Of a stretch of 49,258 bases of DNA, positions 1-49,258 are shown in pieces; positions within the stretch are counted from its first letter, which is position 1, and the number at the start of each line of letters is the position of its first letter. This DNA is from a virus: positions 1 through 49,258 of the IMG/VR virus record IMGVR_UViG_3300045996_001332; one strand, written 5' to 3'. Both the position numbers and the translations under genes were made by a program. Under the pieces are notes generated by a model, which was not told the origin of the DNA, made no database searches, and was given only the letters and a program-made list of their open reading frames with translations.

Positions 1-127
1 AGCAGCAGATGCGGGAGTGGTTCGGCCGCGTCCCGAAGTACCTGATCACCCTGGACGCCAGCTACTGCGCCCAGTGCAGCGACACCGACTTCTGCGCGCT
101 GGTGGAGCACGAGATGTTCCACATCGG
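1..127. repeat. Terminal direct repeat, left copy (assembly overlap of a circular genome)
   Basis: Bases 1-127 are identical to 49132-49258. The metallopeptidase reading frame that starts at 48837 continues in phase into this copy. An odd-length overlap of 127 bases, falling inside a gene, is typical of a de Bruijn assembler with k=127 closing a circular or circularly permuted molecule. It is more likely an assembly overlap than a biological terminal repeat. The non-redundant genome length is 49,131 bp. Confidence 0.93.
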
Positions 128-39096: not shown

Positions 39097-39627
39097 TCAG
39101 TCTTCGTTGTGATCGAGCGGCAGCTCGCGTTCGCGCTCGTCCTTCGGTGGTCGCACGCGCGCTGACGTCGTGGCCTTGCGCATGGCTGCCTCAGCCGCGC
39201 CAGAGGGCAGGGGCTTGAAGTGCTTCTCCACCTTCTTGTCCGACACCGCAGTCTTCTTCAGCTGGTCCAGGACCTTCGGCTTCTTCTTCTGCAGCACTTC
39301 GCGGATCGCGGCGTCGAGGCGGCCCTGCACCGCCGCGCGCTGGATCTCATCGAGCGATTCCCACATCTTGAAGTCAACGTGCTCGAACGGCCAGTCGAAC
39401 CAGCCGCGGCCGAGATCGAATACCTCTTCCAGATCGCGCGCCGCGTCGTCGCCGAGTGTCCGAGGGTTGCGAGTCCCATCAGCCTTTTGGGGTAGTAGGA
39501 CTTTCTTAAGGATCTGGTCCAGGGACTGCCAATTCATCTTGGCCTTGTCAGCGACCACTCGCACGCCACCCTCCTGAGCGCATAGCTCGGCGAGTCGGCG
39601 ACGGCGAATTTCCGCGTTCGTGTCCAT
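39097..39627 (-). CDS. CI-like repressor without peptidase domain
   Basis: The 176-residue protein has a DNA-binding N-terminus (NAEIRRRRLAELCAQEGGVR, KAKMNWQSLDQILKKVLLPQ, TLGDDAARDLEEVFDLGRGW). The C-terminus is Lys-rich and helical (LQKKKPKVLDQLKKTAVSDK) and lacks a LexA/S24 Ser-Lys protease. RecA-driven self-cleavage is therefore not expected; induction must work otherwise. It faces the Cro-like gene across the operator region. The start ATG lies about 8 nt after its -10 box. Confidence 0.83.
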   Translation of the reverse strand: MDTNAEIRRRRLAELCAQEGGVRVVADKAKMNWQSLDQILKKVLLPQKADGTRNPRTLGDDAARDLEEVFDLGRGWFDWPFEHVDFKMWESLDEIQRAAVQGRLDAAIREVLQKKKPKVLDQLKKTAVSDKKVEKHFKPLPSGAAEAAMRKATTSARVRPPKDERERELPLDHNED

Positions 39628-39721: not shown

Positions 39722-39973
39722 ATGCCCAAGTCCCTGACCCCCGATGAGCGCCGCCACCTGGCTGAAAAGGTGGGGGTACACCCCGCCACCCTCTACCAAG
39801 CCATGACCGGGAAGGGCGCCGGCTTCTCGCCGGCCGAGTGCGTGCGCATCGAGCGCGACAGCGAGCTCGAGCTCCGCCGCTGGGACCTGCGGCCGAACGA
39901 CTGGCACTTGATCTGGCCGGAGCTGATCGACACGGCCGGCGCGCCCGCCGTCGAGGAACGCAAGGCCGCCTGA
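39722..39973 (+). CDS. cro: Cro-like regulator (YdaS type)
   Basis: The 83-residue protein has a compact HTH (TPDERRHLAEKVGVHPATLY, GFSPAECVRIERDSELEL) of the Cro/YdaS type used by many phages, followed by LRPNDWHLIWPELI. It is the first gene of the rightward operon, directly under PR, with no ribosome-binding site. It should bind the same operators as the repressor and favour lytic growth. Confidence 0.82.
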   Translation: MPKSLTPDERRHLAEKVGVHPATLYQAMTGKGAGFSPAECVRIERDSELELRRWDLRPNDWHLIWPELIDTAGAPAVEERKAA

Positions 39974-40023
39974 CGTGACGACGCCACAAGTTGTCTCCCT
40001 GGTGCCTCGCGCACCGGTTCAAG

Positions 40024-40055
40024 CCACCGGCCTTCGGGCTGGTGGTCTTTCTCTC
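40024..40055 (+). terminator. tR1-like hairpin between cro and cII
   Basis: A 9-bp stem with one G-U pair, CCACCGGCC / GGCTGGTGG (40024-40032, 40037-40045), closed by a TTCG tetraloop and followed by TCTTTCTCTC. The T tract is imperfect. It lies in the 163-base gap between the Cro-like and CII-like genes, like lambda tR1. The rest of the gap shows no gene. Confidence 0.55.
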
Positions 40056-40136
40056 GGTGGCTCTGCGGTTCATGCCAGCAGTGTCGTTTCCGAAGTTCCC
40101 GCCCGCCATAACCAAATCTCAGGAGACCGGTTACCC

Positions 40137-40595
40137 ATGAACCCGATCGACGCGATCCGCTTGATGGTGAAACATTACCCCGGTGGGGCTGACACGCTCG
40201 CCGTGCTGTGCGGCAAGTCCGGCGAGACGCTGCGCAAGGAGATCGCCAGCGCGGCTGGCTACAAGCTCGGTGTTGCAGACGCCTGCATCATCAGCGAGGC
40301 CTGCATCAAGGCCGGCTCTCCCCACTGCCACGCCTACGCCAATGCCGTGGCCGCGAACTGCGGCGGGTTCGTGCAACTGGAAGTGCGCGACACCATGCCC
40401 CGCCGCAACATCCACGGCGATGCGGCTGGCCTGGTGAAGGAAACCGCCGATGTGGTGGGCGCGATCGCCGAGGCCATGCGGGACGGCACGGTCTCTGACA
40501 ACGACCGCCGCACCATCGAGAAGGAGCTTCGCGAGCTGCTGGAGCAGATCCAGTGCGTGGCCGCGGGGGTGAATTCCGAAGCGAGGGCGGCCTGA
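40137..40595 (+). CDS. CII-like phage regulator (Phage_CP76 type)
   Basis: The protein has 152 residues from ATG 40137; AGGAG lies 11 nt upstream. An upstream in-frame start at 39975 would add 54 low-complexity residues and is rejected. The pattern MNPIDAIRLMVKHYPGGADT, then AVLCGKSGETLRKEI and HAYANAVAANCGGFVQLEV, fits the 'regulatory CII family'. It would act in the lysis-lysogeny choice or early transcription. The gene overlaps the next by TGATG. Confidence 0.82.
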   Translation: MNPIDAIRLMVKHYPGGADTLAVLCGKSGETLRKEIASAAGYKLGVADACIISEACIKAGSPHCHAYANAVAANCGGFVQLEVRDTMPRRNIHGDAAGLVKETADVVGAIAEAMRDGTVSDNDRRTIEKELRELLEQIQCVAAGVNSEARAA

Positions 40596-40780
40596 TGTCG
40601 GAGCCGATCATCTGCCGCCAAGCCATTGCACAGCAGGCTGACGACGCCGCGCGCCGTGCCGTGCAGACCGAGGCGGATCAGACCAACCCGTACCCCGTGG
40701 GCAGCGATGCTGCCGCGGAGTGGGCGCGCCGGTACCACATTGCACTGCTGAAGCACTCGGCCACGGAGGTGTCCGCGTGA
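40595..40780 (+). CDS. Small hypothetical early protein
   Basis: The 61-residue protein starts at ATG 40595 (TGATG overlap), with MSEPIICRQAIAQQADDAAR and AAAEWARRYHIALLKHSA. It links the CII-like gene and the helicase gene by overlaps at both ends. Not recognised. Confidence 0.68.
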   Translation: MSEPIICRQAIAQQADDAARRAVQTEADQTNPYPVGSDAAAEWARRYHIALLKHSATEVSA

Positions 40781-43293
40781 GCGATGCCTACCTCCAGTTC
40801 CTGCGCGAGAAGATCAACCTCGCGCGCTTCGGCGGCTTCGACGTGCCGCTCGAGCAGATCAACCCGGCGCTGAAGCCGCACACGCGCGACATCGTGCGGT
40901 GGATGGTGAAGGGGGGCAACCGCGCCGTCTTCGCCAGCTTCGGCCTGCACAAGACGGCGACGCAGCTGGAGGCCCTGCGCCTGATCGGGGAGCACCGCCC
41001 AGGCCTGCGCCTGCAGGTGCTGCCGCTCGGCGTGCGCCAGGAGTTCTTTCGCGAGGTCGAGCACCGCTTCCAGGGCGACTTCGCGGTGGACCTGCGCTTC
41101 ATCCGCTCGGACGCGGAGATCGATGACGAGCGCACGATCTACCTGACGAACTACGAGAGCGTGCGCGAGGGCAAGGTCGACCCGCGCAAGTTCCGCGCGA
41201 CCAGTCTGGACGAGGCCAGCATCTTGCGCAGCTACGGCAGCAAGACGTACCAGGAGTTCCTGCCCGCATTCGCGCCCGTGGAGTTCAAGTTCGTGGCCAC
41301 GGCCACGCCGGATCCGAACCGGTACAAGGAGCTGATCCACTATGCCGGGTATCTCGGCGTGATGGACACCGGCCAGGCCCTGACGCGCTTCTTCCAGCGT
41401 GACAGCGAGAAGGCCGGGAACTTGACCCTGTACCCGCACAAGGAGCAGGAATTCTGGCTGTGGGTGGCGAGCTGGGCGGTCTTCATCACGAAGCCGAGCG
41501 ACCTCGGGCACAGCGACGAGGGCTACGTCATGCCCCCGCTGGACGTGCGCTGGCACGAGATCCCGAGCGACTACGCCACGGCCGGCGCTGAGAAGAACGG
41601 GCAGGGCCTGCTGGTGCCGGACCTGGCCATGGGCCTGTCGGCGGCCGCGCGCGAGAAGCGCGACAGCATGCCCGCCCGCATCGAGAAGGTGCAGGAGCTG
41701 GTCACCGCAGACCCGCAGGACCACTTCATCGTCTGGCACGACCTCGAGGATGAGCGCCACGCGCTGCAGCAAGCCATCCCCGAGGCGGTGAGCGTCTGGG
41801 GTTCGCAGGACCTGGACGAGCGCGAGGAGCGGATCATCGCCTTCAGCGATGGGCAGCACCGGATCCTGTCCACCAAGCCGGTGATCGCCGGCAGCGGCTG
41901 CAACTTCCAGCGCCACTGCCACCGTGAGGTCTTCGCTGGCATCGGCTTCAAGTTCAACGACTTCATCCAGGCGGTCCACCGGACGCTGCGCTTCGGGCAG
42001 GAGCATCAGGTGCGCATCGACATCGTGCACACCGAGTCCGAGCGGGCGGTGAAGGACGAGCTCCTGGCGAAGTGGCGTCGGCACACCGAACAGCAGGAGC
42101 GCATGGCGCAGCTGGTGCGCCAGTACGGCCTGGACCAGCTCGCCATGCAGGACACGCTGGCCCGCACGATCGGCATCGAGCGCAGGGTGGAGCAGGGCGA
42201 CCGATTCCAGGTGGCGAACAACGACTGCGTGCTCGAGGCGGAGCTGCAGCCGGAGAACTCGGTCGACCTGATCGTCACGTCGATCCCGTTCGCGAACCAC
42301 TACGAATACACGCCCTCGTACAACGACTTCGGCCACACCGAGGGCAACGACCACTTCTGGCGGCAGATGGACTTCCTGACGCCGCAGCTGCTGCGGATCC
42401 TGAAGCCCGGCCGCCTGTACTGCTGCCACGTGAAGGACCGGATCAACTTCGGCAACGTCACCGGTGCCGGCATCCCGACCGTCAGCCCGTTCCACGCGGA
42501 AGCGATCTTCCACGCGCGGCAGCACGGCTTCGACTACATGGGGATGATCACGATCGTCACCGACGTGGTCCGGGAGAACAACCAGACCTACCGCCTCGGC
42601 TACACCGAGATGTGCAAGGACGGAACGAAGATGGGCGTCGGCTCGCCGGAATACGTCCTGCTGTTCCACAAGCCCCAGAGCGACCGCAGCCGCGGCTACG
42701 CCGACACGCCGGTGGTGAAGTCGAAGGCGGAATACAGCCTCGCGCGCTGGCAGGTCGACGCGCACGCCTTCTGGCGCTCCAGCGGGAATCGGCTGCTGGC
42801 GGCCGAGGAGATGGCGGCCCTGGGCCCGGCGAAGCTGGCCAAGTTTTTCACCGACGACAGCCTGCGCCGCGTGTACGACTATGAGCAGCACGTCTCCATC
42901 GGCGAGCAGCTTCAGGCGCGCAACGCGCTTCCGTCCACCTTCATGAGCCTGGCGCCCGGGAGCCACGATCCCGAGGTCTGGCACGACGTCAACCGCATGC
43001 TGACCCTGAACGGGGATCAAGCGCGCAGGGCGGTGGAGCAGCACGTGTGCCCGCTGCAGTTCGACATCGTGGACCGGCTGATCGAGCGGTACAGCAATGC
43101 CGGCGAGGTGGTCTACGACCCGTTCCACGGGCTGGGCACCGTCGGTGTCCGCGCCATCAAGAAGGGCCGGCACGCGGGCGGCAGTGAGCTCAGTTCCGCC
43201 TACTTCGCCGACCAGGTGCACTACCTGCGCGCCGCGGAGCAGGAGGCCAGCATGCCCACGCTGTTCGACGCGCTCGAAACGGAAACCGCGTAG
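40777..43293 (+). CDS. SF2 helicase fused to an amino-DNA methyltransferase
   Basis: The protein has 838 residues from GTG 40777. The N-terminal 450 residues are an SF2/SNF2-like motor: FASFGLHKTATQLE (Walker A Lys59), SLDEASIL (Asp145, Glu146), VATATPDPNR, and QAVHRTLRFGQEHQV (residues 398-412, motif VI). The C-terminal 380 residues are a methyltransferase with catalytic DLIVTSIPFANHYEY (residues 498-512) before the SAM site VVYDPFHGLGTVG (781 on), a beta-class order. TSIPF suggests N4-cytosine or N6-adenine. It lacks a nuclease. It may protect phage DNA during replication, like P1 DarB; that is inference. Confidence 0.88.
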   Translation: MSDAYLQFLREKINLARFGGFDVPLEQINPALKPHTRDIVRWMVKGGNRAVFASFGLHKTATQLEALRLIGEHRPGLRLQVLPLGVRQEFFREVEHRFQGDFAVDLRFIRSDAEIDDERTIYLTNYESVREGKVDPRKFRATSLDEASILRSYGSKTYQEFLPAFAPVEFKFVATATPDPNRYKELIHYAGYLGVMDTGQALTRFFQRDSEKAGNLTLYPHKEQEFWLWVASWAVFITKPSDLGHSDEGYVMPPLDVRWHEIPSDYATAGAEKNGQGLLVPDLAMGLSAAAREKRDSMPARIEKVQELVTADPQDHFIVWHDLEDERHALQQAIPEAVSVWGSQDLDEREERIIAFSDGQHRILSTKPVIAGSGCNFQRHCHREVFAGIGFKFNDFIQAVHRTLRFGQEHQVRIDIVHTESERAVKDELLAKWRRHTEQQERMAQLVRQYGLDQLAMQDTLARTIGIERRVEQGDRFQVANNDCVLEAELQPENSVDLIVTSIPFANHYEYTPSYNDFGHTEGNDHFWRQMDFLTPQLLRILKPGRLYCCHVKDRINFGNVTGAGIPTVSPFHAEAIFHARQHGFDYMGMITIVTDVVRENNQTYRLGYTEMCKDGTKMGVGSPEYVLLFHKPQSDRSRGYADTPVVKSKAEYSLARWQVDAHAFWRSSGNRLLAAEEMAALGPAKLAKFFTDDSLRRVYDYEQHVSIGEQLQARNALPSTFMSLAPGSHDPEVWHDVNRMLTLNGDQARRAVEQHVCPLQFDIVDRLIERYSNAGEVVYDPFHGLGTVGVRAIKKGRHAGGSELSSAYFADQVHYLRAAEQEASMPTLFDALETETA

Positions 43294-43305: not shown

Positions 43306-43746
43306 ATGCAGTACCCCAGCCCCACCTCGATCCCGGAAGCAGCTTTGCCGCTGCATTCGCGAGCGCCTCAGGCTACCAGCCGGGAGGCTCAGCAGGCCGT
43401 CGGCGATTTGCGCGACAACCTGTCGGCCGATGCCGACACAGCCGTGCGCCGCGGCGTTGCCGAAACCAGCATCGAGGCCTTCCACAGCCTGTCGCCCATC
43501 GCGTTCCTCGCCCCGAAGGAGGCCGCGATCCTGCGGTTGTTCAAGCCGGGCGTGAAGCTGTCGCGCCAGCAAGTCAGCGCCATGGTCCCGATGCCGATCA
43601 ACGGGGTCTGCGGCCGCGTGGATTCGCTGCTGGCGGCCAAGCACCTCGAGGAGTGCGGCGACCGCATCGACCCCCAGACCCGCAAGCGCCAGAAGCTCCT
43701 GCAGCTGCCGGAGCCTGCGCAGCAGTCCCTGGAGGGCTTGGCTTGA
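43306..43746 (+). CDS. Winged-helix-like hypothetical protein
   Basis: The 146-residue protein has a helical N-terminus (REAQQAVGDLRDNLSADADT) and a wHTH-like C-terminus (FKPGVKLSRQQVSAMVPMPI, then GVCGRVDSLLAAKHLEECGD). It should bind DNA. It lies just before the replication genes. It may regulate the rightward operon. Family not recognised. Confidence 0.68.
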   Translation: MQYPSPTSIPEAALPLHSRAPQATSREAQQAVGDLRDNLSADADTAVRRGVAETSIEAFHSLSPIAFLAPKEAAILRLFKPGVKLSRQQVSAMVPMPINGVCGRVDSLLAAKHLEECGDRIDPQTRKRQKLLQLPEPAQQSLEGLA

Positions 43747-44663
43747 GCGACCTTCCTGTTCCGCTGACGCCCGCGGACTGCGACCTCCGGGACTTCCCGC
43801 ACACGCCGCTGTTTCGGTCGCGGCTGTTCGGCTCCTCTTTCCACGCTCGGGCCACGGACTCCGAGTGGCGCGCCGGCGTGACCCTGTGGCTGAAGTCCTG
43901 GGACCAGGTTCCGGCGGGCAGCCTGCCGAACGATGACATCGAGCTGTGCCGCCTGGGCGAGCTGGCGCGCGACCTGAAGACTTGGAAAAAGGTTAAGCCC
44001 GGAGCGCTGCGCGGCTGGGTGTTGTGCAGCGACGGCCGCCTGTATCACCCGGTGGTCGCCGAGGGCGTGAACAACGCCATCGAGAAGAAGGCGGCGCAGC
44101 GTCTGAAGACGGCCAAGGCTCGCATCGCCGCGCTGGAAAAGCGGCTGAAAGAGGCTGCCACGGACGCTGAGCGGCTGCATATCACAGAGGAAATCGCGAA
44201 GGTCAAACAGACCCTGTCACAGACCGTTGGAGTGTCTGTCACAGACCCTGTCTCTGAATCCAAGGGAAGGAGAAGGGAAGGAGAAGGAGAAGGGAATAGT
44301 GATTCCGCTCCTATCGGAGCGGGCGGCGCCGCCGCCGGCCTGAAGCCGAAGACGCCGGAGCAGCTGCGCAAGTCCGAGCTCTGGCGAGCCATCAAGACCC
44401 TGCTGGTCGAGCAGCAGGAGGCGAAAGACCTGAAGGCCGCGGGCGCGATCGTCACGCAGGCCATCAACCGCTACGACGAGCCGACGGCGCTGGCCGCCAT
44501 CGAAGCGACGCTGCAGAAGCGGCCCGCCGGAATCGTCGCCTACCTCGAGGCCGCCTGCCAGCAGGCGACAGGCCTCCGACCGAACAAGCAGGAAGCGCTG
44601 GAGGCGGGAAACCTCGCCGCCGCTGAGCGCTTCGCAAGCGAGGAAGACCATGCAGCAAGCTGA
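43743..44663 (+). CDS. DUF1376 replication protein (O-like), contains candidate origin
   Basis: The protein has 306 residues from TTG 43743, which overlaps the previous stop and has GGAGGG 6 nt upstream. The N-terminal 110 residues fit DUF1376: CDLRDFPHTPLFRSRLFGSS, QVPAGSLPNDDIELCRLGEL and GWVLCSDGRLYHPVVAEGV. A coiled coil follows, then a low-complexity linker (KGRRREGEGEGNSDS) and a C-terminal helical domain. The linker DNA holds repeats and a purine tract that look like a replication origin. This resembles lambda O, with the helicase-loader gene directly downstream. Confidence 0.82.
   Translation: MSDLPVPLTPADCDLRDFPHTPLFRSRLFGSSFHARATDSEWRAGVTLWLKSWDQVPAGSLPNDDIELCRLGELARDLKTWKKVKPGALRGWVLCSDGRLYHPVVAEGVNNAIEKKAAQRLKTAKARIAALEKRLKEAATDAERLHITEEIAKVKQTLSQTVGVSVTDPVSESKGRRREGEGEGNSDSAPIGAGGAAAGLKPKTPEQLRKSELWRAIKTLLVEQQEAKDLKAAGAIVTQAINRYDEPTALAAIEATLQKRPAGIVAYLEAACQQATGLRPNKQEALEAGNLAAAERFASEEDHAAS
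44207..44322. other. ori: Candidate replication origin inside the DUF1376 gene
   Basis: Two direct repeats CTGTCACAGACC (44214-44225 and 44236-44247) are exactly 22 bp apart. A second pair CAGACCCTGTC lies at 44208-44218 and 44242-44252. The second copy is part of a palindrome GTCTGT-C-ACAGAC (44234-44246). A purine tract of AAGGGAAGGAGAAGGG type follows (44261-44296), then a 7-bp hairpin CCGCTCC/GGAGCGG (44305-44322). Iterons plus an unwinding-prone tract within the initiator gene match the lambda O/ori plan. Confidence 0.6.
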
Positions 44664-45294
44664 CAAAAAGGCGTTCGCGCTGTTGATCGCGGGCGTCTAC
44701 GCTTACCACCGACAGCCGTGCTCGGACGCGCTGATCACGATGTACTGGCGCGGGTGCCAGCGCTGGACTTTGGAGCAGGTCACCAAGGCGGTGGACCAGC
44801 TCACCTACGACCCGGAAGCCGGCAAGTTTCCGCCGAAGATCGGCGACCTGGCCCGTGTGCTGGAGGGCACTGCCACCGACCGCGCCGCGCTTGCCTGGGG
44901 CAAGGTGCACGAGGCCATGAGCGCCGTCGGCGCCTACACCGACGTGGTCTTCGATGACCCGGCGGTCCACGCCGTGATCGAGGACCTGGGCGGCTGGCCG
45001 AAGGTGTGCCGCACGGAGCTCAAGGAGCTGGGCTACCTGCAGCACAAGTTCTGCGAGGGGCACCGCGCCTATGTCGGCCGCGGCACCTTCGACTACCCGC
45101 GCCGGCTGATGGGCGACCGCAGCCCGGACCACGAGTGGGAGAAGAAGGGCCTCAAGCCGCCGGCGCCCGCGCTGATCGGCGACGTCGCCCGCGCGAAGGC
45201 GGTGTTCGAGCGCGGCGGGCTGGCCGGCAAGACCGCCATCACCTTCAACGGCTTGGTGGCAGCTGCGCTGCCGGCGCCGGGAGTCCCGGCATGA
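44650..45294 (+). CDS. DUF6475-like replication protein (P-like loader candidate)
   Basis: The 214-residue protein overlaps the DUF1376 gene. Its start MQQADKKAFALLIAGVYAYH and the segment LEQVTKAVDQLTYDPEAGKF followed by PPKIGDLARVLEG fit the lambda P / DUF6475-type partner of initiator proteins. It lacks Walker motifs, so it is a loader adaptor and not a helicase. It would deliver the host DnaB to the origin. Confidence 0.75.
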   Translation: MQQADKKAFALLIAGVYAYHRQPCSDALITMYWRGCQRWTLEQVTKAVDQLTYDPEAGKFPPKIGDLARVLEGTATDRAALAWGKVHEAMSAVGAYTDVVFDDPAVHAVIEDLGGWPKVCRTELKELGYLQHKFCEGHRAYVGRGTFDYPRRLMGDRSPDHEWEKKGLKPPAPALIGDVARAKAVFERGGLAGKTAITFNGLVAAALPAPGVPA

Positions 45295-48847: not shown

Positions 48848-49258
48848 GCAGCCACCGGAGCGCCAGCGGCCCATGCCGCCCGCCTCCCTGGGCAACTTCG
48901 CCGAGACGGGCTGGACCGACTTCCTGCCGGCACCGGAGGTGCTCGCATGGGTGCAGCGCCAGATCCTCGCTGACGACGGCCTGCTCCACAACCCGGACCA
49001 CCGGCACTTGATCGACGCTGACCTGGTGTTCCTGTGGGCGGCCGGCGGATTCGTGCGGCAGGGCCGCTCGATCATCGGGCAAGCCGAGGAGGTCGCCTTC
49101 CGCTGCGGCGCGTGGCAGAAGATGCGCCAGGAGCAGCAGATGCGGGAGTGGTTCGGCCGCGTCCCGAAGTACCTGATCACCCTGGACGCCAGCTACTGCG
49201 CCCAGTGCAGCGACACCGACTTCTGCGCGCTGGTGGAGCACGAGATGTTCCACATCGG
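48837..49258 (+). CDS. Putative phage metallopeptidase, N-terminal part (continues at window start)
   Basis: The gene starts at ATG 48837, overlapping the previous stop by 11 bases, and runs off the window. Its frame joins the one at positions 3-356, so the full protein would have 216 residues. The N-terminus reads MKRRQPPERQRPMPPASLGN and continues with helices. The HEMFH zinc motif lies in the repeated bases near 49240-49254. It overlaps a gene upstream and lies before TerS. Confidence 0.8.
   Translation, partial: MKRRQPPERQRPMPPASLGNFAETGWTDFLPAPEVLAWVQRQILADDGLLHNPDHRHLIDADLVFLWAAGGFVRQGRSIIGQAEEVAFRCGAWQKMRQEQQMREWFGRVPKYLITLDASYCAQCSDTDFCALVEHEMFHI
49132..49258. repeat. Terminal direct repeat, right copy
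   Basis: Identical to bases 1-127. See the left copy. The duplicated bases should be counted once, which makes the metallopeptidase gene whole. Confidence 0.93.

Follow-up and report, generated by a model that had tools for sequence, protein, structure and literature searches.

The window analysed here is the whole of a 49,258-bp viral sequence (IMG/VR virus record IMGVR_UViG_3300045996_001332, positions 1 to 49,258). An exact direct terminal repeat of 127 bp (window 1-127 and 49132-49258) argues that the record is probably complete, and circular or circularly permuted, which backs the initial annotation in speaking of a circle. The genes of its early region (Table 1) stand in the order repressor, cro, cII, initiator, partner, ninB, which is the order of lambda, where cro, cII, the initiator, its partner and ninB likewise follow one another. 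The partner position, that of lambda P, is taken by a DUF6475 gene, with the NinB-like gene downstream of it. Phage relatives of the DUF6475 gene overlap or adjoin genes annotated as "replication protein O", "primosomal protein" or "replication initiation protein". A P-family match was not found for the DUF6475 protein, which we presume to be the helicase-loading partner of the initiator. (The window also holds, at 40720-43293, a gene for an 857-aa protein whose N-terminal part is helicase-like and whose C-terminal part is an N4/N6 DNA methylase (phrog_16, E 1.6e-117; PF01555); parts of this gene are 76-78% identical in DNA to Mycobacterium and Arthrobacter phage genes, a wide horizontal distribution.)

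Table 1. Early-region genes of the window and elements of the candidate origin
Feature	Position	Strand	Remarks
Repressor gene	39097-39627	-	early region, upstream of initiator gene
Cro/YdaS-like gene	39722-39973	+	early region, upstream of initiator gene
CII-like gene	39975-40595	+	early region, upstream of initiator gene
DUF1376-type replication initiator gene	43743-44663	+	contains candidate origin; TTG start, 306 aa, overlaps preceding gene
Initiator N-terminal domain	43743-44102	+	presumed DNA-binding winged helix; model pLDDT 92
Box 1, CTGTCACAG	44214-44222	+	read as L-S-Q
Box 2, CTGTCACAG	44236-44244	+	gives S-V-T-D in a different frame; box-to-box distance 22 bp
Degenerate third box, CTGTCTCTG	44248-44256	+	12 bp after box 2, a spacing common in relatives
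Polypurine tract, AAGGGAAGGAGAAGGGAAGGAGAAGGAGAAGGGAA	44262-44296	+	35 nt; local variant of (GGGAVA)n
AT-rich patch, ATAGTGATT	44296-44304	+	presumed opening site; short, about 9 bp
Hairpin 1, CCGCTCC-TATC-GGAGCGG	44305-44322	+	covariation, covariance-model search
Hairpin 2, GCGGC-GCC-GCCGC	44323-44335	+	abuts hairpin 1; missing from the initial annotation
DUF6475 gene	44650-45294	+	overlaps initiator gene; lambda P position; PF20081, E 1.3e-27

Proteins of the DUF1376 type occur widely among the temperate phages and prophages of Proteobacteria, where annotation lists them under unknown function or as "primosomal protein"; one paper that mentions DUF1376 alongside replication and phage names it just within a list of proteins. 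The protein of the window matches PHROG 22470 ("replication protein", E 1.6e-30) and phrog_3992 ("primosomal protein", E 1.5e-9). Its match to PF07120 (DUF1376; E 3.3e-5) scores 24.6 bits against a gathering cut-off of 30.1, which its close relatives L287 and L288 pass. An AlphaFold model (33 relatives, mean pLDDT 86) predicts an N-terminal domain, long helices, a disordered stretch and a helical C-terminal domain. The pLDDT falls below 50 solely at residues 164-197, and this stretch coincides with the DNA element described below, confirming that the element lies in the linker of the DUF1376 protein, where the initial annotation had placed it. When the predicted N-terminal domain alone was used in a fold search, the top neighbours were the winged helices of RepA_N initiators (4pql, 5kbj and 4pta) and of ORC2; the scores are weak (Z 4.5-3.6), and these modelled resemblances, while thematically consistent with an initiator role, are not conclusive. 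(A search with the full-length model was set aside, as it matched mostly long helices.)

The linker contains two copies of CTGTCACAGACC (44214-44225 and 44236-44247, 22 bp apart), a second repeat pair, ACAGACCCTGTC (44207 and 44241, 34 bp apart), and the palindrome TCTGT-C-ACAGA (TCTGTCACAGA, 44235-44245). Both repeat pairs and the palindrome had been reported in the initial annotation together with the purine tract and hairpin 1, and all of them are present where it located them. Across the whole 49 kb there are seven exact 12-mer direct repeats within 60 bp, five of which fall inside the 90-bp stretch of the element, compared with a mean of 0.66 per genome and at most 6 in Markov-2 simulations. 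The exact decamer CTGTCACAGA occurs genome-wide at just the two box sites. Note that with one mismatch allowed it has four sites, a count reached in 29 of 100 shuffles; because that number is not unusual, the box is meaningful by its clustering and conservation rather than by its rarity.

Conservation was assessed in an iteron set of 14 genes, the gene of the window and those of 13 relatives with 43-62% full-length identity. Their coding strands carry 41 boxes of the form CTGTNACAG ([CT]TGTNAC[AT]G), whereas permuting synonymous codons within each gene gave a mean of 4 and a maximum of 12; the repeats on whose conservation the initial annotation had let its reading depend are thus clearly conserved in relatives. 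On both strands together, 80 boxes lie within the genes versus 3 in 119.7 kb outside. The spacings between boxes are solely 12, 22, 34 (22+12) and 69 bp in 13 of the 14 genes, with L111 having 169 bp in addition. Since most relatives use 12 bp, helical phasing at 22 bp is no general rule, and the argument of the initial annotation that two helical turns would place initiator copies on the same DNA face is a weak one. Moreover, inside one gene two different frames turn the identical box into L-S-Q and S-V-T-D, and therefore what is conserved cannot be the protein. More distant clades have other boxes at the same place, TGTCCC/GGGACA palindromes in L105-L107 and phage Magia and CCTGTCAC/GTGACAGG in phage phi297.

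We entertained the idea that the boxes are operators, serving autoregulation of the initiator operon or another regulator, and that the linker is not an origin. In favour of this, the CTGTCACAG boxes are palindromes, a frequent trait of operators, and the initiator gene is located within a repressor-controlled early region. The boxes, however, lie about 470 nt inside the gene and not at a promoter, and the neighbouring tract stays while the box sequence changes between clades. Nor would operator function explain why, in many families whose boxes are different, a tract, an AT patch and a hairpin come next in a constant order. We consider the operator explanation very unlikely.

The purine tract that follows the boxes is the sole homopurine or homopyrimidine run of at least 16 nt in the genome on either strand; in 300 Markov-1 simulated genomes the longest purine run was at most 22. 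The tract of the window is a divergent form, common to L098 and L082, in which AAGGGA and AGGAGA are mixed and which does not match AGGGANAGGGA. Of 77 DUF1376 genes, 59 carry the wider form (GGGAVA)n, given by AGGGANAGGGA, in their linker, compared with a maximum of 15 under synonymous permutation. Its unit translates into Gly-Gln/Glu, Gly-Thr/Lys or Asp-Arg, differing from phage to phage, and all three frames occur among DUF1376 genes. The choice of codons is also peculiar. In Gly-x runs defined on the protein, glycine is written GGA 179 times, GGG 8 times, and GGT and GGC twice each; outside the runs GGC leads (GGC 916, GGA 377, GGG 317, GGT 233). Likewise, the tract of the window writes arginine as AGG and AGA, whereas the other genes examined use almost solely CGN (5 AGG, no AGA). 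The relatives show selection at the DNA level and not on the protein alone, and the Gly-Gln, Gly-Glu and Asp-Arg repeats of these linkers would be explained as a by-product of a DNA signal.

Several further observations concern the tract. The boxes upstream of it in the linkers of L105-L107 and L283 are TGTCCC/GGGACA palindromes, so that in these loci the tract unit equals the iteron half-site. Some 10 of 91 loci, L182, L201 and L223 among them, have CTCTTA / AACGCTCTTAAGGGA ahead of the tract, with codons unusual for GC-rich phages. We also considered the G-quadruplex as a general principle; (GGGACA)n fits the four-run G3 motif, but because the tract of the window does not, a G-quadruplex is not the common denominator. 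In a few relatives, e.g. L110 and L112, the linker is without recognisable elements, a point against an origin function.

Other tandem linker units, some of them 7 bp long, occur in DUF1376 genes of the Pfam type from Burkholderiales genomes. Those of L300, L306, L308 and L313 are AACCAAT, AACCATT, CCCATCT and AACCAGT, read through all frames (the reading frame necessarily shifts with a unit of 7 bp), and linkers of this kind possibly serve the same function with another unit. When tandem units were compared with a codon-permutation null, many DUF1376 genes were not above the null, because this null keeps the repetitive protein; the 7-bp and some 6-bp units alone stand out. That other DUF1376 genes have other tandem units, that the region is disordered and that tract length differs between relatives are all features expected of a neutral low-complexity linker, in which tract and repeats would be the product of microsatellite slippage without function. 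Slippage does not account for a GGGAVA unit that appears in three frames and in non-homologous initiators (see below), for rare codons kept in GC-rich phages, for non-tandem palindromic boxes at fixed spacing or for the covariation of the hairpin, and we regard it as extremely improbable.

An AT-rich element adjacent to the repeated sites is a property of embedded iteron origins, and in 74 related loci aligned on the end of the tract there is an AT peak directly after it: the 10 nt that come first are 68% AT and the following 10 are 52% AT, after which the value drops to 31%, against a background of 38%. Beyond the AT patch lie the hairpins. Covariation was measured in a set of 13 sequences picked by iterons and not by hairpin. 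(L103, which has no hairpin, was not counted, and the hairpin-only alignment was made without L104.) Pairing was found in 93.6% of cells, and 26 cells had changed on both sides, compared with 7.7 after shuffling (none of 500 shuffles reached 26) and with at most 7 double-change cells in versions of the hairpin slid out of register. For hairpin 2, 88% of cells are paired and 6 cells show double changes. When a covariance model built from nothing but the hairpins was run against 741 kb, it returned five matches with E<1e-3, each immediately 3' of a tract and on the strand of that tract.

Covariation of the hairpin and a fixed strand would also suit elements that act in the early transcript, through antitermination, R-loop formation or translation control. 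The CTCTTA that precedes the tract at some 10 of 91 loci could be counted in the same direction, as it resembles a boxA antitermination element. G-U pairs, however, make up merely 2 of 156 cells in the hairpin set, few for an RNA helix, which suggests dyad symmetry in DNA rather than RNA. Moreover, an Rfam search gave nothing beyond one sub-threshold chance match, and frame-shifted palindromic boxes together with a local AT peak better suit DNA opening. A role in the transcript is, in our judgement, highly unlikely, although R-loop formation would be compatible with an origin and would not exclude one.

A scan for five GGGAVA units, unbiased and using DNA only, was run over 2.9 million viral contigs and gave 103 loci. 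In 82 of these the tract is in sense within a DUF1376-type gene (DUF1376 N-domain), with no antisense cases, and three more (L197, L222 and L267) are truncated DUF1376-like linkers. Another 11 tracts lie in other, non-DUF1376 initiators, either of the Lin1244_N / phrog_2562 type (L206, L212, L218, L244 and L194, the last a fragment placed by its resemblance to L218) or of the MARIRxIKPEFW type, with phrog_2149/1408/16167 replication initiation proteins (L207, L217, L258, L263, L264 and L266). The others are six loci that are not initiators (L200, L209, L271, L216, L255 and L268) and one without an assignment, L227. Thus, about 96 of the 103 loci are within initiator genes, in sense and in all three frames, and initiator genes of several families can be located in phage DNA simply by searching for the frame-independent tract. 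(L200, L209 and L271 have (GGGAAA)n tracts in GC-rich contigs, outside recognisable initiator genes; L200 and L209 are the same sequence.) We raise, tentatively, the possibility that the GGGAVA polypurine tract and the AT patch form a transferable, strand-specific origin module shared by the non-homologous DUF1376, Lin1244-type and MARIRxIKPEFW-type initiators and recognised by a common factor, be it the helicase-loading machinery or a host factor, with the iterons diverging per initiator clade. Note that the G/purine bias of the tract argues against its being a simple AT-rich unwinding element.

The elements at this locus are real and clustered, their order is maintained, and their conservation at the DNA level does not depend on reading frame; the repeated, conserved sites lie inside the initiator gene, as is characteristic of embedded iteron origins. 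We consider it very probable that window 44207-44335 is a phage replication origin embedded in its own initiator gene, which would give DUF1376 proteins both a role, that of initiator, and a place, an origin within their own gene. Which protein binds which element, where the strands open and that replication starts at 44207-44335 are points that we infer. In lambda, O dimers bind the iterons and open the neighbouring AT-rich region, aided by supercoiling and transcription (PMC5043065; PMC7466680), and it is by analogy with this action of O that we propose a mechanism for the window. The DUF1376 N-terminal domain would bind the palindromic CTGTNACAG boxes as an array, and this binding, together with transcription of the early operon through the site, would open the short AT-rich patch beside the polypurine tract. 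The purine strand and the hairpins may mark or hold the opened strands, or be recognised as such, and the C-terminal half of the initiator and the downstream DUF6475 protein would bring in the DnaB helicase.

The parallel with lambda, drawn in the initial annotation from the location of ori within O, holds feature by feature and in the same order. As in the window, the lambda ori is located inside the initiator gene, between the segments for the N- and C-terminal domains, and runs from palindromic iterons through purine/AT-rich DNA to an inverted repeat; the longest homopurine run of lambda (39138-39155) lies within the purine/AT-rich DNA of its ori. The two differ in detail. The lambda iterons are four slightly different copies of 18-19 bp, of the type TCCCTCAAAACGAGGGA, whereas boxes of the window type are 9-11 bp and stand at 12, 22 or 34 bp, and lambda has 40 bp of AT-rich DNA where the window has a very short AT patch and a G-rich purine tract of the hexamer type. 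A Pfam scan of the DUF1376 initiator at E 0.1 returned DUF1376 and two sub-threshold matches, with no O-type family and no sequence homology to lambda O, and the origin would therefore work like that of lambda while standing outside the lambda O family. The GC skew, proposed in the initial annotation as a check, lends the origin no support: its detrended minimum, at 32.0 kb, misses the site by 12 kb; in lambda, by contrast, this measure lands 0.8 kb from ori.

Initiators of several families have embedded origins. SPP1 oriL in gene 38 and other origins of Gram-positive replisome organisers are embedded too, with another initiator family and other repeats, and no polypurine tract of the GGGAVA kind is described for them. 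In RepA_N plasmids such as pSK41, the Rep boxes are central in the rep gene and are bound by the N-terminal winged helix (PMC5703833). In the fold search the DUF1376 N-domain came closest to RepA_N structures, although weakly (Z 3.8-4.5); these plasmids are theta replicons of Firmicutes, and we found no sequence homology between their initiators and the DUF1376 initiator. A published lambda-like precedent is MD8, for which repeats are noted in the O-like gene in the accessible passages of the paper (PMC8508860); the tract and its frame independence are mentioned neither there nor in the record of phi297. No description of a GGGAVA tract or of a DUF1376 origin was found in the literature searched, a search whose coverage takes in few subscription journals. 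While the embedded origin itself is of a known kind, its DUF1376 form with a GGGAVA tract is new and widespread.

Pseudomonas phage phi297 has the same order of elements, with boxes, (GGGACA)n, AT-rich DNA and a hairpin (TCCTAC-TGAC-GTAGGA), and its gene for a DUF1376-like initiator is followed by a gene for a DnaB-like helicase. This neighbour and the fusion described next support a link between initiator and helicase. With the tract as a search pattern, what loads the helicase at such origins becomes a testable question. In L114 (2741-4843), one gene of 701 aa fuses a DUF1376 domain, a (GGGACA)n linker and a full DnaB helicase (PF03796, E 3e-70), an arrangement that suggests that initiator and helicase may act together.
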